From: Tannerella sp. | GTDB lineage: Bacteria > Bacteroidota > Bacteroidia > Bacteroidales > Tannerellaceae | Assembly: GCA_031265585.1 (NCBI GenBank) | Contig: JAISCL010000038.1 | Span: forward strand, 1-51,989 | Length of the DNA: 51,989 nt | Direction: 5' to 3' | In this document: positions 37,391-49,538 of the stretch, in pieces | Layout of the letters: every line of letters begins with the position of its first letter | Numbering within the stretch: position 1 is the stretch's first letter | Position numbers and translations under genes: made by a program | The notes under the pieces: model-generated | Database searches by the model: none | Seen by the model: the letters and a program-made list of their open reading frames with translations, nothing else | Told to the model about the DNA's origin: nothing

Positions 37391-39508
37391 TCAAAATGAT
37401 ATAACGACGGGCTGTTTCCCTTTTTTTTCGTAAATGATCTTTTTCTTTTCAAGCGTCAGCTGTTCGGCGATTTTTCCGGACGACACCGTAATGCTTATTT
37501 TCCCGTCCGTTTCCTGCCGGATCCGGATGTCCGGCTGTTTTTTTTCGCCTTGCGCCGGTTTTATGAGCGCTACAAAATCCGCTTCATTCAATTCCTGCCG
37601 AAGTACGAGCAGAGGCGCTTTTTTGTCTCCTTCACCGGTTGGCATGGCAGCGGTAAATACTGCCTGTTCCTTACCGTCGTGCATGAACCACAGGTTCAGT
37701 CCGCAACCGTCCGCGTCCCAGTGCGCCTTTCCGGAAGCGCCTGCCGGGTGCTGTTTTTTTACATCCGTGATGAACGGATATGCAAATTCGCCGGATGAAA
37801 CAGCCGTACCGGAGTTTATGGCAACCGCCTTCCCCTCCGCGTGAAAAAACCAGTCATAGCGGTGCTTTTCCTTTCCTGCCACATGATCCCAGACGACGGC
37901 ATAACCGTCCGTCAGCATGACCGACCGCGTCCATTCGCATCCTTCGATTTCGGAAGTCGTTGCCGACGCAAATTTAAAGGAGGGATGGATTTCGAAAGCG
38001 GTCAGGTTCCGGTCTTTGGCAGGCGGTTGATTTTTCCCGTCAATGACAAGGGTATTGTGCGACGGGGTGCTTTTCAGAAACTGATTCGATGCGGAGGCAT
38101 ATCCTGTTGTTCCGTAATCGGGCGCTACGATTTTTCCCCCGGCAAACAGGGTGATGCCCATTTTGTCAGGATGTCCGTGTCCCAGGTACGGGCCATAATC
38201 AAACGTCATCATCATTTCCCTGTCGGCCGGAAGGTTTGAGTTTTGCCTCAGTATGGCAATGCCCAGCGTCGGGAAATCGACGGATGAAAAAACAGGTGCG
38301 GCCAGCTTTGCCGGAAGTTCTTCACCGTACAGTACATTCCTGTAGTGTGCATCCAGCAGGTCTCCCGGCACGCCGCTTTTCCCGCCTTTGCGGATTCGGC
38401 GCGCAGCCCATGCAAATTCGGGCAGCCTGTAGCGGTAATAGCCGGCCGTATACTGATCCTGCGGCAGCCAGGAATCATACCAGCCATCGTTTATGGCTGC
38501 CAGCCGCATATCGGGATATGCGTACCAGAGCGGTGTTGCAAGCATTTTCCGGATGCCTTTCCCGTCTTTTATTTCCCAGTTGTATAAATCGTCGCCATGG
38601 TTGGCTGCCGCTTCAACAAACGAGAGGAAAGCGTTTAAGGGATAAAAGTGGTAGGTGTGTACCGATTCGGGCCACAGTCCGTCGTCTCCCAGCTGGTCAC
38701 TGATCTGCGCCTTGAACTGTTGGGTCGCGTAATCAATGAAGCGCTGGTGGCGGGTAGCGTATCCCACGACGCCTACCGCCGAAAGATGCCATGAGCCCCA
38801 GTTGCCGCCGAGGCCGGAATTGGCAAGCATTTGTGCGGCAGGCCACAGCAAATCCTGTTCGATATGCGTCCGCTGACCGTCTGTCATGGCATTGTACAGC
38901 AGGTCGTATCCTTCGGCCAGGGGAATCATCACAACCGCTTCTTCAAGTGTTTGACGCAACAGGGTTTGACGCGGGTATGCGTCCGCATAGCGGGAAAGGA
39001 TTTCGATGCCTTTCTCCGCATACTCCCTTTTCCCTTCGACGGCATAAACCATTCCCAGGTGACGGACAGCGCCACACAGCCAGTAGTGTATCAGGGCGCG
39101 CCGCACAGCCAGTACCTTGTCGTTGAGATACGTTTTCCCGCATACCGGACAGCGGCTGGGGACATTATCGCGGAATATTCTGTCGTCCGGGATTTCCAGC
39201 ATCGTACCGTCGGTACAGAAAAAATCGTGAAACCATCCTCCCGTTTCGGGAATGACAGCCGGACGCTGCAGCCAGCGGTCGGCATCCGCTTTTACATATT
39301 TTTCGTAGATCGCCTTCCGTTCGGATTTCCCGTGCAGTATGTCTTCGCGGATAAAGTCAAGCCGTTCGCTGCCGACCGCCACACAGGGATGCGGAAGGGC
39401 ATCGTATTTGCAGGGTTTGGCGCCGACGGCGGCGCCTTCCCTTTTTTCCAAATTCTGTCCCCACAGCATGGCAGGAACCAACAGGCAGACAATTAAAAGT
39501 TTCTTCAT
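37391..39508 (-). CDS. Polysaccharide lyase with alginate-lyase and heparinase II/III-like domains
   Basis: 705 residues with signal peptide MKKLLIVCLLVPAMLWGQ, so periplasmic. The N-terminal (alpha/alpha) domain (about residues 50-370) has RCPVCGKTYLNDKV, an unusual Cys pair, and GGNWGSWHLSAVGVVGYATR, typical of the Alginate_lyase domain. The beta-sandwich half matches heparinase II/III: TFDYGPYLGHGHPDKMGITL, GGKIVAPDYGTTGYA, SHNTLVIDGKNQPP and VWDHVAGKEKHRYDWFFH. Such enzymes cut uronic-acid-containing chains by beta-elimination, and the Tyr/His pair in YGPYLGHGHPD fits catalysis. The exact PL family and substrate cannot be given. It lies 17 bp after the upstream lipoprotein gene within PUL2. 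Confidence 0.85.
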   Translation of the reverse strand: MKKLLIVCLLVPAMLWGQNLEKREGAAVGAKPCKYDALPHPCVAVGSERLDFIREDILHGKSERKAIYEKYVKADADRWLQRPAVIPETGGWFHDFFCTDGTMLEIPDDRIFRDNVPSRCPVCGKTYLNDKVLAVRRALIHYWLCGAVRHLGMVYAVEGKREYAEKGIEILSRYADAYPRQTLLRQTLEEAVVMIPLAEGYDLLYNAMTDGQRTHIEQDLLWPAAQMLANSGLGGNWGSWHLSAVGVVGYATRHQRFIDYATQQFKAQISDQLGDDGLWPESVHTYHFYPLNAFLSFVEAAANHGDDLYNWEIKDGKGIRKMLATPLWYAYPDMRLAAINDGWYDSWLPQDQYTAGYYRYRLPEFAWAARRIRKGGKSGVPGDLLDAHYRNVLYGEELPAKLAAPVFSSVDFPTLGIAILRQNSNLPADREMMMTFDYGPYLGHGHPDKMGITLFAGGKIVAPDYGTTGYASASNQFLKSTPSHNTLVIDGKNQPPAKDRNLTAFEIHPSFKFASATTSEIEGCEWTRSVMLTDGYAVVWDHVAGKEKHRYDWFFHAEGKAVAINSGTAVSSGEFAYPFITDVKKQHPAGASGKAHWDADGCGLNLWFMHDGKEQAVFTAAMPTGEGDKKAPLLVLRQELNEADFVALIKPAQGEKKQPDIRIRQETDGKISITVSSGKIAEQLTLEKKKIIYEKKGKQPVVISF

Positions 39509-39525: not shown

Positions 39526-40752
39526 TTAATCTAACTGAAGCAGCTGGAACCGGCTGCCGCGCAGGTTTTGCCGCGTAGAGACAAAATGTACCAGCAGCCC
39601 GGCTGATATTTCGGTTGGTTGCGTGATTTCAAATTCGACGGATTTGCTGCCGGTCTCGGTCGTGCTGACCGCCATTCCCGCGAGGGAAGCCGAAGCTATA
39701 GCCGAACTTATATTGTCCACATCGGGCAGCGTGTTTCCCCTGGCAACGACCAGGTATCTTGCATCATTTCCCGTATTGCCGATGGCATTGTCCGGCCCTC
39801 CGAAGTCGAATACAAGCTGATAACGGCCCGGGTCTATCGTAAATGTCTGGTATATTTTCCCGTTATTGATGGCCGGGTCGGTTGTCCACTGCTCGGCGCC
39901 CATACAGCCGCCGCCGTTCAGGTCGTCGTAACCGCCGTATCCGCCTTTATTTTTTACGGCATCATTGGTTATCCAGTCGCGGAGGATACCGTACCTGCTG
40001 CCGTCCCAGGAGGACCAGGCAAACGGGCGCCCGGTATTTTTCATATACCTGGACGTTACAACTTTCCGTGTGATTTTCAGCGGCTCCGGATCGGTATATA
40101 ACGTGTCTATGGCCAGTGTATCGGGGAGATAGAGCGTCCGGATAAAATAGTCCACGCTTGTGTCGCCGGACCATTTGGTAACAGCCTCTTCCACGTCAAT
40201 ACGCTCGCCGAAGGTTTGACCGTTACGGACATAAAACAGTTCGACGGCAATTGCGCCGCCTATTACATCGGCTGCACCCCAGGTAATAGAGAGCGTCCCG
40301 TCTTCGACCATCTCACTGAACAGAACCGGACGGGGAAGCAGGTTGGAACGGAATTTTTCGCCATATACGGTGCCCAGCACTTCCGTCGCAATAGAGGCAT
40401 TGCCTTCATCGTCATACAGCGTGATGAAAAAGGAATAAAGATTTTCGGGAAGGTTATCTATCAGAATTTCTACCGAATTCTGTTCCCTGGCAATATCCAT
40501 CATGATGGAATCCGTATAGTTATTCCAGGATACTTTCGCCTTCGTCACGCTGGGCGATGCTCCTTTCAGCCAGGACAGTTTTATCCGGTTATATCCGGGA
40601 TGGGCAACAGGATTTACCGGCTTTCCGGTATAGATCTTTCCGCCGGGGACAATGAAGTCCTTATAGACGCTTTCCATGTCCTTGCAGGTAGTGAAACATA
40701 CGATTGCAAGTACCCCTGCGGTGTATTGAATAATTTTTTTTAGCTCATTCAT
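39526..40752 (-). CDS. SusE-position surface lipoprotein (DUF4998/DUF5013-like)
   Basis: 408 residues; lipoprotein signal ending AIVCFTTC, followed by KDMESVYKDFIVPGGKIYTG, the typical DUF4998 opening. Two fibronectin-III-like modules come next (RIKLSWLKGASPSVTKAKV, TLSITWGAADVIGGAIAV). The C-terminal domain, from about residue 250, resembles DUF5013/carbohydrate-binding jelly rolls (EQWTTDPAINNGKIYQTFT, RYQLVFDFGGPDNA). Probably displays a glycan-binding site at the surface for the PUL2 substrate. A 225-bp gap containing two copies of a 14-bp palindrome separates it from the preceding gene. Confidence 0.8.
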   Translation of the reverse strand: MNELKKIIQYTAGVLAIVCFTTCKDMESVYKDFIVPGGKIYTGKPVNPVAHPGYNRIKLSWLKGASPSVTKAKVSWNNYTDSIMMDIAREQNSVEILIDNLPENLYSFFITLYDDEGNASIATEVLGTVYGEKFRSNLLPRPVLFSEMVEDGTLSITWGAADVIGGAIAVELFYVRNGQTFGERIDVEEAVTKWSGDTSVDYFIRTLYLPDTLAIDTLYTDPEPLKITRKVVTSRYMKNTGRPFAWSSWDGSRYGILRDWITNDAVKNKGGYGGYDDLNGGGCMGAEQWTTDPAINNGKIYQTFTIDPGRYQLVFDFGGPDNAIGNTGNDARYLVVARGNTLPDVDNISSAIASASLAGMAVSTTETGSKSVEFEITQPTEISAGLLVHFVSTRQNLRGSRFQLLQLD

Positions 40753-40824
40753 AAGTCTGTTTGTTAAGAAATAAAAGATAAATACTCTGGGTTGTGTTAA
40801 TTTGAAATCAAAAGAGCCGGTTTT

Positions 40825-40889
40825 GCCTTTCCGTACATGTACGGATTGATGAAATCAACTGATTTGGCCTTTCCGTACATGTACGGATT
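40825..40889. repeat. Two copies of a perfect 14-bp palindrome spaced 42 bp
   Basis: CCGTACATGTACGG occurs at 40831-40844 and 40873-40886, inside longer near-identical direct repeats that share GCCTTTCC before it and ATT(G/C)ATGAA after it. The 42-bp period is about four helical turns. It lies between two same-direction PUL2 lipoprotein genes in an otherwise featureless 225-bp gap. It could be a protein-binding site, an mRNA processing/stability element or a REP-like repeat. No -7 box was found nearby. Confidence 0.85.
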
Positions 40890-40977
40890 CATGAATCGAA
40901 CCTTTTTTGGCCGGTCGCTCCATACACCGGAACATATACAAAAAAACGTCACACTTTGTTTATTTCGCATCACCATG

Positions 40978-42156
40978 TCATTTTACTATCTGTCCCCAGA
41001 ATGACAGTTCATTGAGCGAATAAAATTTGCCGCCGCCACCACGGATCGTCAGCACTTTGAAACGCATGTAGCGCACGGCGGGAATCCCGACAGGAAAACT
41101 GTAGTCTTCGCCGGCCCGCTCATATTCCATATCTTCGGCCGTATAGGTAGGATCCGGAAGGCCGGAAGGCTTGAAACTTTCGAAATGTCCCAGCAGAATC
41201 CATTTATCCCAGTCGTCCACCAGTTCGTTAGACCCCCATATTTCAAAGTCTTTCACCCAGTCAGGTACGTAAGGATATCCAATACACTGAAACAGCCTCA
41301 TCCGGCCGAAAACAACCGGTTGTTGCATGTCCATTGTAAACCATTGGGGGTAGGTGTCATCTTCGGATTTATACCAGGTATCGCCGGCTCCGACCTTGCC
41401 GTCAAACAGCCTGTCTACCGAATTTGTTCCCTGTCCTTTGTTTTTATCACTCGGCAACGATACTAATTTAAAATTAGAATAGGGAATCGGTTCTTCAAAC
41501 AGGGGCGTCAGGTTTTTCACCAGCGTGTCGGACTTGTTATTCCAGCGGTCGCGTATGTATATGCCGAAATCTGCGGCTTTTGCTTCCATGTCCCGTATGG
41601 CAAAATTACCCTCGAGGGAAGACGTAAAATGCGGCGCCAGTTGAAACCATTCCCGGTTGCCCGTTGTGTCGGCCATGACAAAAATAGCCAGATCGGCCTG
41701 GGCTTCATTTTTATAGGTTATTTGTACCCCGCCGAAAGTAACGTCGAGGGTCAAGGTTTTAAACGCACTTTTCACGGGAGGAAGATCCGGCCTTACATTA
41801 ACGGTAATGGGGGCCGATTCTTTTTCATTCCGCCCGACACTGTAGATATTCACCTTATATTCCGTCGTATCGCCGAAGCCTACCAGATACAGGCTGTCCT
41901 GATAGGAGGAAGATTTGGCCTCGCGATAGACGCCCGGCTGAATTTCATAAACGGCTTTCACATACGACAGCGATTTGTCTTCCGGCAGTTTATAAGTAAC
42001 AATCGCACCGCCAGGAATGCTTTCCCATTTCACATCGTGTACCTGTCCGGGTATCGCGGCATCCGTATCCGGATACGAAAGATGCTCTTCTTCCTTGCAG
42101 CCATACCACCCAATCAATACCAACGCTGACAGCGTCATAAAAATATTTGTTTTCAT
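40978..42156 (-). CDS. Surface lipoprotein with DUF4959/DUF5126/F5-8C-like domains
   Basis: 392 residues; lipoprotein signal ending LIGWYGC. After IPGQVHDVKWESIPGGAIVTY (DUF4959 start, a fibronectin-like domain) comes a second domain (LTLDVTFGGVQITYKNEAQA) and a C-terminal discoidin/F5-8 type C-like module (SVDRLFDGKVGAGDTWYKS, PQWFTMDMQQPVVFGRMRL, ending SLNELSFWGQIVK). Such DUF5000-type modules bind carbohydrate. It follows susD by 24 bp and is the probable SusE equivalent of PUL2. Confidence 0.85.
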   Translation of the reverse strand: MKTNIFMTLSALVLIGWYGCKEEEHLSYPDTDAAIPGQVHDVKWESIPGGAIVTYKLPEDKSLSYVKAVYEIQPGVYREAKSSSYQDSLYLVGFGDTTEYKVNIYSVGRNEKESAPITVNVRPDLPPVKSAFKTLTLDVTFGGVQITYKNEAQADLAIFVMADTTGNREWFQLAPHFTSSLEGNFAIRDMEAKAADFGIYIRDRWNNKSDTLVKNLTPLFEEPIPYSNFKLVSLPSDKNKGQGTNSVDRLFDGKVGAGDTWYKSEDDTYPQWFTMDMQQPVVFGRMRLFQCIGYPYVPDWVKDFEIWGSNELVDDWDKWILLGHFESFKPSGLPDPTYTAEDMEYERAGEDYSFPVGIPAVRYMRFKVLTIRGGGGKFYSLNELSFWGQIVK

Positions 42157-42180: not shown

Positions 42181-44073
42181 TTACCAGCCCAAATTCTGTA
42201 TTAAATTCGGGTTTACGGAAATTTGATTATCATTAATCGGCCAAAAGTAGTCTTTTGATCCGAAAGTTTGATCAAACAAGGTCGCTTTTCTGTAATATGC
42301 TTCGGCGCTTTCCTGCTGCCTGTCCCAGCCCTGTACCGGATTGTTCAGGATCCCGGCTGCTGTTTTCCAGCGGCGCAAATCCCAGAAACGCTGCCCCTCG
42401 AAAGCCAGCTCGTTCAGCCGCTCGCTGCGGATGATCTCCCGCAGGCCCGACTGCGACCTGTATTTGTCCGGCGTTATGGAATAATTGTCCCAGGCATCTT
42501 CGACCGTGGGCAATCCCGCTCTTTCGCGGACGCGGTTCAGGTATTGGTATACGTCTTCACCCGGGCCTTCCGCTTCGTTGAGCGCTTCGGCATACAGCAG
42601 GTAGAGATCCGCCAGCCGTATGACCGGCCATGGATAACCACTTACGGAATAGGTTCCCGATCCGATCACGTTTTCAAAATGAATCAGTTTCTTAATGTAA
42701 TATCCCGTAACGGTGCTTCTGTCGCTGCCGGCCGCATGACGCTGCCCCTTTTTGGTCTGTACGTAAAACAAATCACTCGGCTTGGCATTGTCATAGATTC
42801 CCTGCCCGTACCAGATGCCTCCGTCGAAGCCCAGGGAGGCATAAAACCTCGGTTCGCGGTCGAAATGCATGTATACGGTGGTATAGCCTTCGCGAATGTA
42901 CAGGCCTTCCGCCGCCGTGCTTTCCCGCAGCGTGTAACGGTTGTTGTAGTCCCAGGTTTTGTCTTCACTGATCGGGACTCCGTGGCGGGTGTAAAACTGT
43001 TCCACTATTTTCAGCGTGGGCGAATAGTCGCCGCGCGGGGTAGTATTCGATAGATATAGCGGATTCAACGGCGGAATCGCCGATCCCTGGATGGCGCAGT
43101 AACTCTGGGTATTGGCCCAGATCACCTCGCTGTTCCACCGCTCGCAGACGCTGTTGCGAATACTCAGCTGATGCCGGATCGTATCCGTAAGCCTGAACTG
43201 CTGGTAAATCTCCGGATACACGTACAGTTTCATGGCGTCATAATCGCATACTTCAATCGCTTTCCGGCATGCATCCATTGCCAGGCGCCATTTTTCCGCA
43301 TCATATTCCTGATTGAACAGAGGCTGTCCGCCCGGATATTTTAAAGTGGCCTGATCCGTATTGCCATTGTATAAATCGCTGGCAGCCGTTACCAGGATTT
43401 TGGCTTTCAACGCCAGCGCAACCGGCTGTGTGATACGGCCGGCCTCCTGTTGCCTGTTCAGCGTGTAAACGCTCGGTTCAAGAAATTCTACGGCTTCATC
43501 AATTAAGTTGACGATGTATGCAAAGCACGAATCTACCGGATCCCGAACGGTTTTCACCTCGTCGATACTTGCATCAACGGGCATGTTTTCCTTTATTAAC
43601 GGTACCGGCCCGTACATCTGTACCAGGTAGAAATGGTAATAGGCCTTGAGTACCTTTACTTCCGCTATCCATTGATATCTTTCCGTTTCATATATATCGG
43701 GCACATTGTCAATATTTTCCAGAAAGATGTTACAGTCGCGCAATCCCCGGTATAAGTTTACCCAATAGTTATCCCCGTACGGGCTTGTTTTACTCTGGTA
43801 TCCCCTTGCCAGGCTGAAGTACGCACTTCCCTGATTATTCAGCCGCCAGATCTCGTCTCCGCCTTCCATTGCGGGATCCTGTCCCGGATTGCCGTGCCGC
43901 GGCAAATACGAATAACAGGTAAACAAATATCTCTCCGCTTCATTTCTCATGGCAAAAGCATGGCTCAGCGTGGTTACGTTGTCGGGAATCAAACCCAGAA
44001 AATCCGAACAGGATCCCGATAATAATACAATCAGCCAGCCCAACAGGAAACGATTTGTGTATATTGCTTTCAT
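42181..44073 (-). CDS. SusD-family outer-membrane lipoprotein (PUL2)
   Basis: 630 residues, longer than the PUL1 SusD. Lipoprotein signal ending IVLLSGSC, followed by SDFLGLIPDN. The helical scaffold includes IAEVKVLKAYYHFYLVQMYG, VIRLADLYLLYAEALNEAEG and IIRSERLNELAFEGQRFWDLRRW, with a C-terminal LIQNLGW. It caps the adjacent SusC and binds substrate. It begins 29 bp after susC. Confidence 0.95.
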   Translation of the reverse strand: MKAIYTNRFLLGWLIVLLSGSCSDFLGLIPDNVTTLSHAFAMRNEAERYLFTCYSYLPRHGNPGQDPAMEGGDEIWRLNNQGSAYFSLARGYQSKTSPYGDNYWVNLYRGLRDCNIFLENIDNVPDIYETERYQWIAEVKVLKAYYHFYLVQMYGPVPLIKENMPVDASIDEVKTVRDPVDSCFAYIVNLIDEAVEFLEPSVYTLNRQQEAGRITQPVALALKAKILVTAASDLYNGNTDQATLKYPGGQPLFNQEYDAEKWRLAMDACRKAIEVCDYDAMKLYVYPEIYQQFRLTDTIRHQLSIRNSVCERWNSEVIWANTQSYCAIQGSAIPPLNPLYLSNTTPRGDYSPTLKIVEQFYTRHGVPISEDKTWDYNNRYTLRESTAAEGLYIREGYTTVYMHFDREPRFYASLGFDGGIWYGQGIYDNAKPSDLFYVQTKKGQRHAAGSDRSTVTGYYIKKLIHFENVIGSGTYSVSGYPWPVIRLADLYLLYAEALNEAEGPGEDVYQYLNRVRERAGLPTVEDAWDNYSITPDKYRSQSGLREIIRSERLNELAFEGQRFWDLRRWKTAAGILNNPVQGWDRQQESAEAYYRKATLFDQTFGSKDYFWPINDNQISVNPNLIQNLGW

Positions 44074-44102: not shown

Positions 44103-47100
44103 TTAAAATCCAATATTCAAGCCAACGTTGAATGTTTTCTGCAACGGATAACCCAGGCCTTTACCTCCCATTTCCACGTCCCACATCTTGAAGCGGCTCA
44201 ACAGGAATAAATTAGTTCCCGTAAAGTAGATCCTGAGATTATCCATCCTCATTCTATTCAAGACTTTCTGAGGCAGGGTATACCCTATCTCCATCTGTTT
44301 CAATCTTAAAAAAGACCCGTCGCGCATAAACCAGGTATTGGTCTGGTTATTGTTTGATATGACGGTTGTGCTCAACCTGGGCCACAGCGCATGGATGTTC
44401 CGGTTGTCTTCCGACCAGTAATTGTCGGCATACGCCTTCAGCAACTGGGTTTCATTATAAAACGGGGATGTTTCCGAATAATTGATCCAGAACGACTCGT
44501 TTGCCAGCCCCTGGAAAAAAGTCGAAAAGTCAAATCCCTTATATCCCGCCGAAAACCCGAATCCGTAGACGATTTCAGGCAACGTCGGGTTTCCTATCGG
44601 CACCTGGTCGGCTGCCGTGATGATATTATCCCCGTTTACATCCAGGTATTTGATGTCACCGGCTTTATAATCTCCAAACTGAACGGGTGCATTGGCTACT
44701 TCCGCTTCATCAATGAACAGCTTTTCCGCTATGTATCCCCATGACTGGTAAATGGAGGAACCGACCCTCGAACGCCACCATTCCTGATAATTCGGCTCTT
44801 CATACACCTCATAACTGCTGGTAGCGTAAGTGAAATTACCCCGGGCCGTAACCCACAAGCTGTTTCTCCATGCCTGCTGGTAGTCGACGGATATATCGGT
44901 TCCCCTGCCGGAAGCTTCTCCTACATTGGCGCGGATTTTATAGATGCCCGAAGTGTTCAAGCCGGTCGTATTGGGAATCGTCGTGCGATCCATGAGGATA
45001 TTCTTCCGGTATTCGTTAAAATATTCGGCAATAACATTCACTTTTCCCCACAATCCTACTTCCAGAGCGAAGTTCTTTTTTTCGGAAACTTCCCATGTGA
45101 TGTCATCGTTGGCATACCGGTCTACGGTAACGCCGTTTTTTTGGTATGAACCGGCATTTTCCCCGAATGATGCCGCCTTATTGGCATCGTTCATGTTCAC
45201 GATCGAAATAAAGAAGAACCTGTCTTCCGCAGAACCGATCGCATCATTTCCGGCCAGTCCGTAGGATGTTCTTAAACGAAGGTTGGATATCGTTTGTTTC
45301 ATGGGTTCCCAGAACGCTTCGTTGGAAATACTCCATGCCAGGCCGCCGGACGGGAAAAAGCCGAACCTGTGCGATTTGTGAAAACGCTCGGAGCCATTGT
45401 ATCCGAAATTAAATTCGGCAAAATAACGGCTGCCGTAAGAATAGGTGGCACGCCCGGAAAGCCCGATGTTCCGGTAAGGCAGTGTCTCCTGAAAAGAGCT
45501 TACATTTGCCTCCATCCTGTCCTTCAAAATAAAAATCAGCAAACCGCTCACGCCGTGCTTTTCGGCAAATGTCCGGCTATAATCCACTGCGGCCTCAAAA
45601 TACATGTCGGAATCTACCGTTTTCTTTCCTTCGGCCCAGTCGAGATATTCCGAACCGGAATCTTCATTCAAGCTGGTCAACTGATAATCACCGGTGACCG
45701 GGTCCGTATAGGCTAATTCGTAAAAATACGGTCTGTACCCGCGGGTTATTTCATAATAGGAATCGCGCGTTACGTTAAACATGGCCCTGGCTTTAAGCCC
45801 TTCCGTAATCATACTCAGATCCTGCTTTAAATCAACCTGAGCAAGCATTTGTGAACGGTTATAGTCTTTGTAGCCCCTCACCATTTGAGCGTAAGGATTG
45901 ATATACTGGGCACGGTCATAGTTGCCGAACATAATGTGATTCACATACTTATATCTTTCCGTTGTGGGATAATAGGCGGGAAACAGCACCGGATTGGAAT
46001 GCATCACCAGCGTGTACATATCGGAACCGCTGCTTAACGGACCTGTGTAATTGTCAAAATTCCCGTTTAGCCGGACAATCATTTCCGTACTTTTTGTGAG
46101 ATCAATATTAATATTCGACCGCAAGGTGTATTTCTGCAGGTTGATATTGTTATTGAAATTGTTTCGCTTGTCGACTTCCAGTATCCCGTTATCCTTACTG
46201 TAAGATGCCGACACAAAATACCGGGCGATGGTTCCTCCTCCGCTTACATTCAGGTTGACGCGCTGGTTCGTGGCATAATCGCGAAAAAGCAATTGATACC
46301 AGTCGTTTGCCGGGTAAAGTATCGGATCCGTCCCGGCTTCCGTATAGGCGATTTTCCTGTCCGAATAACGCGTAATTCCCAGCGGATCCCGTGTCAGTAC
46401 GGCTTCATTGGCTAATCGCATGTAAGTTACGGGATCTGCCAGTTTTATATTTTTGGTAGGAGTAGATACCGAATTTTCTATCCTGACGCTCAACTTCGTC
46501 TTACCCTCGCTTCCCTGCTTGGTCGTCACCAGAATCACGCCATTGGCGCCGCGAGCGCCGTATAAAGCCGTCGCTGTGGCATCTTTCAGGATACTGAAAC
46601 TGGCGATATCGTCGGTATGAATGCGGGCCAAATCGGTGGTTGACAATTCAATCCCGTCAATCAGGATCAATGGACTTGTTTTATAGCCGAAAGTCGTTAC
46701 GCCACGCACGAAAAAATCCGCATTGTCCTGTCCGGGTTCTCCGCTCCGCTGATAGGAAATGATACCGGCAAGATTACCGGCAAAAGAGGTAGTCAGGTTA
46801 CTGGAAGGAACTTTCAGTTTTGACGGATCAATTGTTGTAATCGACGCCACCACGCTTTCTTTCTTTTGCATGCCGAAAGCCACAACGGTCACTTCGTCAA
46901 GCTCGTTTGCTTTGACCTCAAGCCGGATGTTAAATTCATTTTTATCGCCTACGGTTACCGTATACGTCTGATAACCGAGGTAATTAATCTCCATAATATC
47001 GGCAGGCTTCACTTCGATCTTGAATTTCCCGTCTAAATCGGTTATTACGCCGCGTGTAGTGCCCTTAATGGCTACCGTAGCGCCGGGGACAGGCTCGTCG

Positions 47101-47489
47101 TTCTCGTCAAACACCGTCCCTGTAACCCATTTATCGGATTGATTGAAGACCGTTGACATTGGGCTAACTTCGGTTTTACCTGCTTCTTCAAGGTAGACGA
47201 CTACCTGTTTGCCCACTATGCGATAATTCAGCATTGTGCCGGCAAACAAACGGTCAAGGAGTTGATCAATGGCGGTATTTTCCATATCAATACTGACCTT
47301 TCTGTTCGTTTCGGCATGGACATTGTTACTCCAGGCGAAAGCGTAATCGCTGTTCTTTTCAATCTCTGCAATTACCTCCCGGATGGTCATGTCTGTTAAA
47401 CGTATCGAGAGATTGACGCCCTGCGAAAAAACGTTATCGGCAGATACGGTACAGATACCAATCACTAATAATACTATTGTTGCTTTCAT
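44103..47489 (-). CDS. SusC-family TonB-dependent transducer with STN domain (PUL2)
   Basis: I take the ATG at 47489 (1128 aa), where MKATIVLLVIGICTVSADN starts a good signal peptide; an in-frame ATG at 47564 would add 25 residues and cannot be excluded. After the signal comes an STN (secretin/TonB short N-terminal) domain (TIREVIAEIEKNSDYAFAW), the signalling module that contacts a FecR anti-sigma factor. Then follow a carboxypeptidase-regulatory-like domain (VTGTVFDENDEPVPGATV), TonB box and plug (LDEVTVVAFGMQKKESVV, FFVRGVTTFGYKTSPLILID) and the barrel ending TFNVGLNIGF. The STN domain matches the FecR/ECF pair encoded directly upstream, so substrate import and gene activation are coupled. 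Confidence 0.95.
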   Translation of the reverse strand: MKATIVLLVIGICTVSADNVFSQGVNLSIRLTDMTIREVIAEIEKNSDYAFAWSNNVHAETNRKVSIDMENTAIDQLLDRLFAGTMLNYRIVGKQVVVYLEEAGKTEVSPMSTVFNQSDKWVTGTVFDENDEPVPGATVAIKGTTRGVITDLDGKFKIEVKPADIMEINYLGYQTYTVTVGDKNEFNIRLEVKANELDEVTVVAFGMQKKESVVASITTIDPSKLKVPSSNLTTSFAGNLAGIISYQRSGEPGQDNADFFVRGVTTFGYKTSPLILIDGIELSTTDLARIHTDDIASFSILKDATATALYGARGANGVILVTTKQGSEGKTKLSVRIENSVSTPTKNIKLADPVTYMRLANEAVLTRDPLGITRYSDRKIAYTEAGTDPILYPANDWYQLLFRDYATNQRVNLNVSGGGTIARYFVSASYSKDNGILEVDKRNNFNNNINLQKYTLRSNINIDLTKSTEMIVRLNGNFDNYTGPLSSGSDMYTLVMHSNPVLFPAYYPTTERYKYVNHIMFGNYDRAQYINPYAQMVRGYKDYNRSQMLAQVDLKQDLSMITEGLKARAMFNVTRDSYYEITRGYRPYFYELAYTDPVTGDYQLTSLNEDSGSEYLDWAEGKKTVDSDMYFEAAVDYSRTFAEKHGVSGLLIFILKDRMEANVSSFQETLPYRNIGLSGRATYSYGSRYFAEFNFGYNGSERFHKSHRFGFFPSGGLAWSISNEAFWEPMKQTISNLRLRTSYGLAGNDAIGSAEDRFFFISIVNMNDANKAASFGENAGSYQKNGVTVDRYANDDITWEVSEKKNFALEVGLWGKVNVIAEYFNEYRKNILMDRTTIPNTTGLNTSGIYKIRANVGEASGRGTDISVDYQQAWRNSLWVTARGNFTYATSSYEVYEEPNYQEWWRSRVGSSIYQSWGYIAEKLFIDEAEVANAPVQFGDYKAGDIKYLDVNGDNIITAADQVPIGNPTLPEIVYGFGFSAGYKGFDFSTFFQGLANESFWINYSETSPFYNETQLLKAYADNYWSEDNRNIHALWPRLSTTVISNNNQTNTWFMRDGSFLRLKQMEIGYTLPQKVLNRMRMDNLRIYFTGTNLFLLSRFKMWDVEMGGKGLGYPLQKTFNVGLNIGF

Positions 47490-47563
47490 CCTTATAATTA
47501 GATGTTCATAGTCCCCGGATGTTTTTTTTCTTCCGGAATTGAATAGGATTTTAAAAAAAATCA

Positions 47564-47571
47564 TACTTTTG
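47564..47571 (+). promoter_or_regulatory. Promoter -7 box of the candidate antisense RNA
   Basis: TACTTTTG on the plus strand matches TAnnTTTG. It points away from susC, across its leader, with no protein-coding gene downstream on this strand. An ATTG lies 22 bp upstream as a weak -33 element. Confidence 0.5.
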
Positions 47572-47577
47572 CATGGT

Positions 47578-47658
47578 TTTAATTGTTATTAAATTTGTTT
47601 AGAGATGAATTTGATTACAATCCGCCGGACGGTATCTGCGGTACTGTCCGGCTTTTTT
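47578..47658 (+). ncRNA. Candidate cis-antisense small RNA of PUL2 susC (DonS-like)
   Basis: The RNA is framed by the -7 box at 47564-47571 and the Rho-independent terminator at 47625-47658, predicting about 80 nt. It lies on the strand opposite to susC, within the region that should form the susC mRNA leader (between fecR, ending 47787, and the susC start at 47489). The unstructured 5' part (47578-47624) is AT-rich and would be perfectly complementary to the leader. DonS-type RNAs with this placement and size are known next to ECF-sigma-controlled susC genes in Bacteroides and repress them. No conserved sequence comparison was possible here. A 29-codon frame starting at 47605 runs through the terminator and is unlikely to be translated. 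Confidence 0.55.
47625..47658 (+). terminator. Rho-independent terminator of the candidate antisense RNA
   Basis: Arms 47625-47634 and 47642-47651 pair over 10 bp (one G-T wobble) around a seven-base loop, followed by six T residues at 47653-47658. There is no T run on the opposite strand, so it works only in the plus direction. Confidence 0.85.
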
Positions 47659-47786
47659 GTTATCGCGGGCATTTGTAGATTCACACTGCTTACCCGTAAC
47701 CAGTATAAATGTTGTAGCCGGTGCATTTGTTCTTTTATGTGTCTCTCGCTCTCATAATCTTTGGCATTAAAGGTTAATAATCATAT

Positions 47787-48950
47787 TTACTCGCATTTGA
47801 TAAAAATTGTTTTTCCGTCCCGTTCGTATTTGGCTGACATGAGCAGGGCCACGGTTTCCATGACTTCATACGTGTTTTCGACCAGGATTATCTTACCGGA
47901 ACAGGTTTTACCGGCCAAATCGACGTCGTCGCTGACCCGGAACGAAAGATTGTAGTAACGTTCCAGTTGTCGCAGCATTTCTTCCATTGGCGTATCGTCG
48001 AGCAGGATATAACCGTTTTTCCAGCTCAAGTATTCCGTGACGTCGACAACGGATGTATTCCATTCGTCCTGCGTACATGTCAGCATGTCATTTGGCCGGA
48101 GGAATGTTTCGTCACGCGAGGCGCTTTTGACGCTAACTTTACCTTCAACAAGCACTACCCGGTGCATTCCGGCGTCACGATAGGCGGAGATGTCGAACTT
48201 TGTACCATAAACCTGCACATCAAAATCATCTGTATGGACAAGAAACGGTTTCCGTATATCCTCTGCTACTTCCAGGTATATTTCACCGACAAGCCTGACT
48301 TCACGGAATTTGCCCGTGAATGTAGCAGGAAATTCGAGTACCGACCCGGAGTTGAGCCAAACTTTTGTTCCGTCCGAAAGTTCGAGCTGCGACCGTTTGC
48401 CGTAGGGGACTACCAGTGTCTGTTTCGCTGTTTTTTCCGTTTTGACGACAATCGCCGATTCGTTATCGGCTTCGTGTATGGTTGTCTTACCGTCTTCATC
48501 GATGCTGATCTGCACATCTTTTGCAAATGTTTTTGTTTCCCTGTTTATTATCAGGTGGATATCCTCGGCTTCGAGGTTTTCGCAAACGATGGTGTAAGTG
48601 GAATCCGGTTGATCTTTGCTTTTATATACATTATTATAGATATATAATGCCGCCATGAATATGATACAGGCAGCTGCGACATAACGAACAAAAACCTGTA
48701 CGGCATGTCGCCTCGTGCGGAGGGACAGGGTCGCCTTGATACGTTGCAGGAGGTGTTCCGTATCGCCCGCATCAGGCCGTATTTTGTTCAGGCGTAAACG
48801 GGAAAACTTGCTGATCGCTTTTTCAAATTCCTCTTTTACAGCAGGATTGGCTGACACAAACCCGTGCCAATATGCTTCCAGTTCGCTGTCGCGTGTCAGT
48901 CGCCAGAGAAGAAATTTTTCGTCGTTCAGAAAATCTTTGTCCTTTTTCAT
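47787..48950 (-). CDS. FecR-family anti-sigma factor
   Basis: Inner-membrane anti-sigma factor that holds the ECF sigma until the STN domain of SusC signals substrate binding. The start at 48950 (387 aa) is taken at MKKDKDFLNDEKFLLWRL; a start eight codons upstream is possible. Order: cytosolic sigma-binding region (about residues 1-80), one membrane segment (VRYVAAACIIFMAALYIY), then the periplasmic FecR domain with YGKRSQLELSDGTKVWLNSG, VRLVGEIYLEVAED and PFLVHTDDFDVQVYGTKFDI. Last is a C-terminal DUF4974/STN-like module (MEEMLRQLERYYNLSFRV). It lies 42 bp after the sigma gene. Confidence 0.94.
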   Translation of the reverse strand: MKKDKDFLNDEKFLLWRLTRDSELEAYWHGFVSANPAVKEEFEKAISKFSRLRLNKIRPDAGDTEHLLQRIKATLSLRTRRHAVQVFVRYVAAACIIFMAALYIYNNVYKSKDQPDSTYTIVCENLEAEDIHLIINRETKTFAKDVQISIDEDGKTTIHEADNESAIVVKTEKTAKQTLVVPYGKRSQLELSDGTKVWLNSGSVLEFPATFTGKFREVRLVGEIYLEVAEDIRKPFLVHTDDFDVQVYGTKFDISAYRDAGMHRVVLVEGKVSVKSASRDETFLRPNDMLTCTQDEWNTSVVDVTEYLSWKNGYILLDDTPMEEMLRQLERYYNLSFRVSDDVDLAGKTCSGKIILVENTYEVMETVALLMSAKYERDGKTIFIKCE

Positions 48951-48992
48951 ATCTATATGACGACGAACGTTCATTTTTGTTCCCTCTTTTTC

Positions 48993-49538
48993 TCAAAAAT
49001 GAATTAAAAATAACAGAGATACTTTCCAGGCCTGTTCGCGCAGTTTGCTTATTGTTTTGTGAATCAATTTACGGCATGATGATTCCGTGATACACATTAT
49101 TTGCGATATTGATTCATAATCAAAGTTTTGTTCGTATCTGAGCCAGATGATTTCGCGCTGCCGGTCGGTCAGGTTCTTCAGCAGTTGTTCGACCTTCCTT
49201 TTGAGTTGTGCCTGTTCCTCGTCTTCTATCAGTTCGTCTTCGACGGAAGTTTCAATTCTGAACGGTACCATTTCTGCGATTTCGTCCACAGGTGCCGGCG
49301 TATCATGCCGGGTTTTACGAATATCAAGCAAACGGTTTTTTACGGAGCGGAAAAGGTATGCACGGATATTAGCCACATTTCCGACAAGCGGTTTTTCAGC
49401 ACATATCCGGCAAAACACGTCGTGGATTGCATCCATTGAAGTGTCACTGTCAAAACCGAAACCGATTGCGTATGCAAAAAGTTCGTTGATATGTGCACGA
49501 TACAGTACGTCTATTTGTTTATTATGCCGGTCTGTCAT
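48993..49538 (-). CDS. ECF RNA polymerase sigma factor (PUL2 activator)
   Basis: 181 residues. Sigma region 2 is seen at the N-terminus (LYRAHINELFAYAIGFGF, MDAIHDVFCRICAEK, IRAYLFRSVKNRLLDIRK), and region 4 in the C-terminal third (LKNLTDRQREIIWLRYEQNF, ISQIMCITESSCRKLIHKTI). It should direct transcription of susC and downstream PUL2 genes when released by FecR. The C-terminal tail VSLLFLIHF is unusually hydrophobic. It is the first gene of the minus-strand cluster; 239 bp upstream lies a (TC)21 tract. Confidence 0.94.
   Translation of the reverse strand: MTDRHNKQIDVLYRAHINELFAYAIGFGFDSDTSMDAIHDVFCRICAEKPLVGNVANIRAYLFRSVKNRLLDIRKTRHDTPAPVDEIAEMVPFRIETSVEDELIEDEEQAQLKRKVEQLLKNLTDRQREIIWLRYEQNFDYESISQIMCITESSCRKLIHKTISKLREQAWKVSLLFLIHF

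Follow-up and report, generated by a model that had tools for sequence, protein, structure and literature searches.

Organization of the susC locus

The DNA that was analysed, here called the window, is a stretch of 51,989 nucleotides (52 kb) from Tannerella sp. Open reading frames and domain matches place on its minus strand an ECF sigma factor gene (48993 to 49538), the anti-sigma gene fecR (47787 to 48974, its ORF ending at 47787; PF04773 and PF16344), susC (44103 to 47564; STN, CarbopepD_reg_2 and Plug domains, TIGR04056) and, downstream of susC, susD (42181 to 44073). Further neighbours are two proteins of DUF4959/DUF5126/DUF5000 and DUF4998/DUF5013 domains and a heparinase II/III- or alginate-lyase-like protein. 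From these neighbour genes we conclude that this is a polysaccharide utilization locus under sigma/anti-sigma control, and the adjoining fecR and ECF sigma genes agree with the preliminary description, in which this susC was called ECF-controlled. The heparinase II/III- or alginate-lyase-like and DUF4959/DUF5000/DUF4998 proteins, at 37391-39508 and 39526-42156 of the window, hint at an acidic polysaccharide as the substrate.

A predicted antisense RNA gene between fecR and susC

In the gap between fecR and susC the plus strand carries, in this order, a -7 box (TACTTTTG, 47564 to 47571), an AT-rich stretch, a hairpin of 13 pairs, 8 of them G-C, with a 3-nt loop (47624 to 47652), and a tract of six T (47653 to 47658). 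Together these would make up the gene of an antisense RNA of about 81 nt (47578 to 47658; model match at 47561 to 47658), complementary to positions -14 to -94 of the susC leader, whose 5' end near 47578 we infer by counting about 7 nt past the -7 box. It had been claimed beforehand that a -7 box and a 10-bp terminator hairpin with six Ts define an RNA of about 80 nt opposite susC; the box, the six Ts, the strand and the approximate length were all found again, but the stem has 13 pairs and not 10. Because no -33 element was conserved across 130 aligned promoters of relatives, the promoter is assigned from the -7 box alone. A box of the same kind precedes a tRNA-Gln gene in the Tannerella sp. 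genome.

The fold of 47578-47660 had a free energy of -33.2 kcal/mol (z -7.1) and none of 200 shuffles was as stable. When both strands of the whole window were searched, five hairpins of -15 kcal/mol or lower with T5 behind them were found and the antisense terminator was the strongest, and when the fecR-susC gap was shuffled by dinucleotides such a terminator arose on the antisense strand in 0 of 1000 cases. A cruder consensus scan of 7 kb gave nine terminators against 7.6 expected from shuffles, and the one in the fecR-susC gap had the longest and most G-C-rich stem of the nine. The terminator is not due to chance. On the plus strand of the window no protein gene that it could serve was seen, just as had been stated in the preliminary description.

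Distribution of the RNA among relatives

A BLASTN search of 119 related genomes found the hairpin in the fecR-susC gap of two of them (G036 and G048, the latter of another genus), and a search for copies of the 201-bp region returned mostly promoter-like stretches and weak candidates only; no near copy of the window RNA was found by BLASTN in its own genome. Two covariance models, which contain the box and the hairpin and no SusC or FecR information, were built. The first, R1, was limited to four members because MAFFT misaligned some hairpins of the first members, and the second, R2, was built from 36. With R1 at E<=0.05 the RNA was found in 83 of 123 family genomes (own genome and training genomes counted), and many of the 40 genomes that gave no R1 match are incomplete. 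With R2 at E<=0.01 it was found in 51 of 295 genomes of the order and in 9 of 198 genomes of the phylum, the own genome being counted in both. In the own genome there were 14 model matches at E<=1, all 14 at SusC 5' ends. At the 86 loci examined (L085-L170), which are best matches only, a SusC ORF on the opposite strand opened less than 200 nt from the RNA 5' end in 82, FecR lay beyond the RNA 3' end in 74, and neither was present at four (L095, L134, L136 and L155), as judged with SusC and FecR profiles that were made from the examined loci and seeded with the window proteins.

An independent scan used the hairpin pattern alone, with no box and no T tract, although the pattern was drawn from members already found. 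It was directed at a genome collection of 84,980 species and matched at least 119 places; among the 119 listed, 97 were at SusC and/or FecR in the expected orientation and 86 were beside both. Among these listed matches a T tract was present in 97 of the 97 SusC/FecR-linked places and in 6 of the 22 others, and the carriers in SusC/FecR context include Flavobacterium, Arenibacter, Maribacter, Zunongwangia, Belliella, Echinicola, Fulvivirga and a Bacteroides sp. One Flavobacterium johnsoniae strain carries the element (L285). When eleven genomes with pattern matches were searched in full with R2, nine had matches, and the two with none, Megasphaera and Chryseolinea lacunae, were ones in which the pattern matches lay outside SusC/FecR context; 20 loci were returned from the eleven genomes and SusC was present at 19, whereas L302 had neither SusC nor FecR. 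Thus the RNA recurs in the susC leaders of relatives, a search for which had been proposed, both by the models and by the hairpin scan, while the STN-type SusC loci L029, L060 and L064 have no comparable antisense terminator. Two genomes are among the closest relatives by SusC: in G002 (63% identity) the sequence ends 60 nt upstream of susC, and in G005 (69%) no such terminator was seen in 700 nt; the match in G005 starts at residue 108 and it may be another type of locus.

The hairpin covaries. An alignment of 84 members has 93.7% of its stem cells paired, changes on both sides in 13 of 13 pairs, and a covariation score of 0.597 compared to 0.250 when shuffled and at most 0.156 in slid controls; in 36 members the pairing is 96.8%, 10 of 13 pairs are changed on both sides and the score is 0.596. 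The alignments were fitted to the model, so these figures lean towards it, and the slid controls show to what extent. By the comparative evidence the predicted RNA gene is real, and it is very probably a real switch.

In the own genome, L125, L126 and L127 (contigs C321, C241 and C360) have very similar SusC N-termini and leaders, spread over several contigs and with FecR not found beside them; they could be duplicated or recombining susC heads.

The promoter box and the susC start codon

The -7 box begins with the complement of the A in the ATG of susC (47564-47562), so that start codon and box share one base and the promoter lies across the codon. CAT was found at the box in 79 of the 86 loci examined and it opens the SusC frame in 71. 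In the hairpin-only set, among the matches listed, the box with CAT was present at 90 of the 97 places linked to SusC/FecR compared to none of the 22 others, and it was in frame with susC at 85 of the 97. This box-start context was seen at 67 of 80 SusC genes at model matches, a figure that is partly by construction, and elsewhere at 2 of 25 other SusC genes and 2 of 71 FecR genes. All other long ORFs (209 of 857) did not serve as a control since SusC ORFs were still among them, and FecR ORFs were used instead. The protein read from the ATG at 47564 opens with a GRKK...HLI.KMK stretch that is partly common to other SusC of the same type, and for this reason the start of susC is probably 47564 and not 47489.

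Stand-alone copies in Bacteroides

R2 gave matches in 42 of 60 genomes of the genus to which the Bacteroides sp. record belongs. Thirty loci of that genus were examined and 17 had SusC or FecR whereas 13 had neither (L302, L328, L330, L331, L334, L339, L343-L345 and L347-L350). Most RNAs of that genus are nearly identical in sequence, and when one of them was used in BLASTN a single copy was found in five of seven genomes, four at 96% identity, and none was found in G652 or in the own genome of the window. In some of the five single-copy genomes susC lies opposite the RNA and in others it does not. That a copy stays alike without susC opposite it hints at targets elsewhere. Two of these places, L348 and L349, also occur among the 86 loci as L134 and L136, and L136 is near an ORF that resembles a butyrate/acetate kinase, as named by eye.

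Comparison with known small RNAs

The DonS family of Bacteroides (Cao et al. 2016, J Bacteriol, known here through papers citing it) comprises RNAs of 78-128 nt that are divergent to susC (PMC7366714). The RNA predicted here is like it in being antisense, divergent to susC and located in a polysaccharide utilization locus; by position its gene lies opposite and overlaps the leader of a susC homologue, against which it would be transcribed, and its length falls within 78-128 nt at 81 nt if it starts about 7 nt past the box. The match to DonS-type RNAs in layout and size put forward earlier is thus upheld by the antisense place in the susC leader, the length and the fecR/ECF setting, and, as compared by description, layout, size and setting all bear out the DonS-type reading. 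Unlike DonS, which was reported for Bacteroides, this family is also present in Flavobacterium, Arenibacter, Maribacter, Echinicola, Belliella and others. No Rfam family matched at gathering score in the window, in 20 loci or in 20 further loci, and other Rfam searches gave matches only far below gathering scores. Among the papers listed by literature searches, none describes, by title and the start of the abstract, an antisense RNA family of this kind outside Bacteroides. In Flavobacterium psychrophilum 287 antisense regions have been reported, and section 18 of that paper cites the DonS work and names none of them at susC (PMC9723704).

In B. thetaiotaomicron there are 32 PUL-associated antisense RNAs (PMC7366714, PMC10994844, PMC11697453); RNAs of similar layout are made in this species, and repression has been reported for one in B. 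fragilis (PMC7366714, PMC10994844, PMC9723704). The RNA-PUL pairs of B. thetaiotaomicron show both anti-correlation and positive correlation and so repression is not automatic (PMC10994844). That the window RNA would repress susC is what its place, its strand and the published DonS case suggest. FopS represses SusC translation and has 14 paralogues (12-15 per genome reported) with a shared 5' seed that act in trans, 4 of the 14 being classed as antisense RNAs (PMC11697453). Like FopS and GibS (PMC11697453, PMC7366714), the predicted RNA is short with a terminator hairpin at its end, and its putative promoter is of the housekeeping type, as in FopS. As to the number of paralogues, the own genome has 14 model matches, and BLASTN gave no close copy of the window RNA in it. 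Unlike FopS, the Bacteroides relative of the window RNA is present as one copy per genome, and for this reason its identification as FopS is not supported.

Proposed mechanism and alternative explanations

We consider it likely that 47578-47658 encodes a DonS-type cis-antisense RNA, which would work as follows. Without substrate, the housekeeping sigma factor would make the antisense RNA, which would pair with the susC leader from -14 to -94 and block ribosomes, and the RNA duplex would be exposed to double-strand cleavage so that leaky susC mRNA goes unused. When FecR frees the ECF sigma factor, polymerases that arrive from the direction of fecR would cross the antisense gene and its promoter, and this read-through would shut off the antisense RNA and titrate the remainder, giving a sharper OFF/ON switch. 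What speaks for such a gene is that it has its own -7 box and its own terminator, both conserved, that it lies across the susC leader, and that the hairpin is selected on the antisense strand.

The last point bears on whether the conserved element could instead be a leader hairpin of the susC mRNA, with the box being an A-rich susC start context. A-rich start contexts are common in Bacteroidota, and the sense strand can form part of the hairpin, since 862 of 1077 stem cells still pair on it. On the antisense strand, however, 1009 of the 1077 cells pair and 160 of these are G-U, all of which turn into A-C on the susC strand, and in 77 of 86 loci the antisense version of the hairpin is more stable than the sense version (Wilcoxon p 6e-13); by these counts and the stability bias, selection acts on the antisense RNA. 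The T tract is moreover on the antisense side in every one of the 97 linked places among the matches listed, and the rarity of the box-start context at other SusC and at FecR genes shows that it is not a general one. A sense-strand leader hairpin was rejected on the G-U counts and the T tract, and we regard it as improbable. A small protein gene, for example a type I toxin, could be read from the ORF at 47605-47757 (50 aa, with a hydrophobic stretch), but this ORF runs through the terminator and has its ATG in a part of the RNA that homologues do not conserve, and so it was rejected as well and appears hardly credible.

Two other explanations accept the RNA gene and differ in what it does. If promoter firing against susC were all that mattered and the RNA were a by-product, the one-base overlap of start codon and box in 71 of 86 loci, and in 85 of 97 of the hairpin-only set among the matches listed, would be readily understood; transcriptional interference has no need, however, of a terminator that limits the length of the RNA and is conserved with covariation, though the terminator also shields fecR from read-through, and interference by itself seems to us rather unlikely, if less so than a sense-strand hairpin. 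The RNA might also act mainly in trans on other susC-like mRNAs as FopS does, the place opposite susC being its birthplace. The 13 of 30 loci without SusC or FecR in the Bacteroides genus, where the RNA is about 96% identical with or without susC opposite and is present once in each of five of seven genomes, are in favour of this, but the RNA lies opposite susC in 82 of the 86 loci, and what is alike across loci is mainly the hairpin and the box; the middle part, through which pairing in trans would occur, is not conserved between homologues. Action mainly in trans is therefore about as improbable in our view as the sense-strand hairpin.

A mini-ORF in the susC leader

An element GCCTATG was found on the susC strand in 60 of the 86 loci L085-L170, in 48 of them exactly and in 12 with one mismatch, and it lies 7-61 nt before the 3' end of the antisense RNA. 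It opens a mini-ORF such as M*, MK*, ME* or MEK* (L085-L170 and L183-L301). The frame of its ATG ends after a median of 2 codons, within 10 codons in 57 of 59, compared to medians of 17 and 12 in the other frames. In the hairpin-only set, among the matches listed, the exact GCCTATG was present in 42 of 97 and all 42 frames end within 10 codons, with 15 and 20 for the other frames. In the window GCCTATG is broken, and a possible degenerate counterpart is MPKIMRARDT* at 47735 to 47768 on the minus strand, as translated by eye. GCCTATG as an ECF promoter is disfavoured because many paralogous loci have it in identical form although they would require different sigma factors, and also because the ATG frame ends within a few codons; translational coupling to fecR is disfavoured because the frame and the distance to the fecR stop vary. 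As judged on titles and abstract starts, nothing that fits this mini-ORF was seen among the papers listed by literature searches.

The pattern of stops suggests that the mini-ORF frame is probably read by ribosomes, in which case transcription of susC should begin upstream of the mini-ORF and the mRNA should span the entire antisense gene. PUL24 of B. thetaiotaomicron is in line with this, as the mRNA 5' end was mapped there 291 nt before susC (PMC11501099). As here, the anti-sigma gene in PUL24 is directly upstream of susC, and the mRNA 5' end lies inside the anti-sigma gene, so that such an mRNA would cover the whole antisense gene (PMC11501099). PUL24 differs in that the end was mapped in another species, and the word antisense is absent from the main text of that paper.

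A wider and more tentative reading, which we hold as possible and with less confidence than the cis-antisense gene itself, is that FecI-FecR-SusC loci have an old leader switch of three parts found throughout the phylum: a promoter placed across the start codon of susC, a short antisense RNA whose hairpin is conserved, and an upstream start-stop mini-ORF (GCCT-ATG, mostly 0-10 codons) whose translation would set how open the leader is to the antisense RNA, one Bacteroides copy having left its locus and become trans-acting. What is new here is the breadth of the RNA family, the promoter at the susC start codon and the mini-ORF, while the window locus itself adds to a known kind; the mini-ORF in many leaders and the stand-alone RNA copies in Bacteroides go beyond the preliminary description. 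SusC genes under FecI/FecR control are one of the main ways in which Bacteroidota choose their food, and if the same antisense RNA spans Bacteroidales to marine Flavobacteriaceae, RNA control would belong to the basic design and not be a peculiarity of Bacteroides, and it would be open to study in Flavobacterium johnsoniae and other species that are easy to work with in the laboratory. The mini-ORF raises the question of how a start-stop ORF helps to control a leader, and the stand-alone copies that of how cis-antisense RNAs become trans-acting.

In the own genome the longer form TGCCTATGRAA is not over-represented (12 occurrences against 19 for the reversed pattern), and 11 of the 12 exact occurrences precede a SusC gene. 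The sole exact one without SusC behind it (L173, contig C170) opens an MK* before a small cysteine-rich ORF, as seen by eye.
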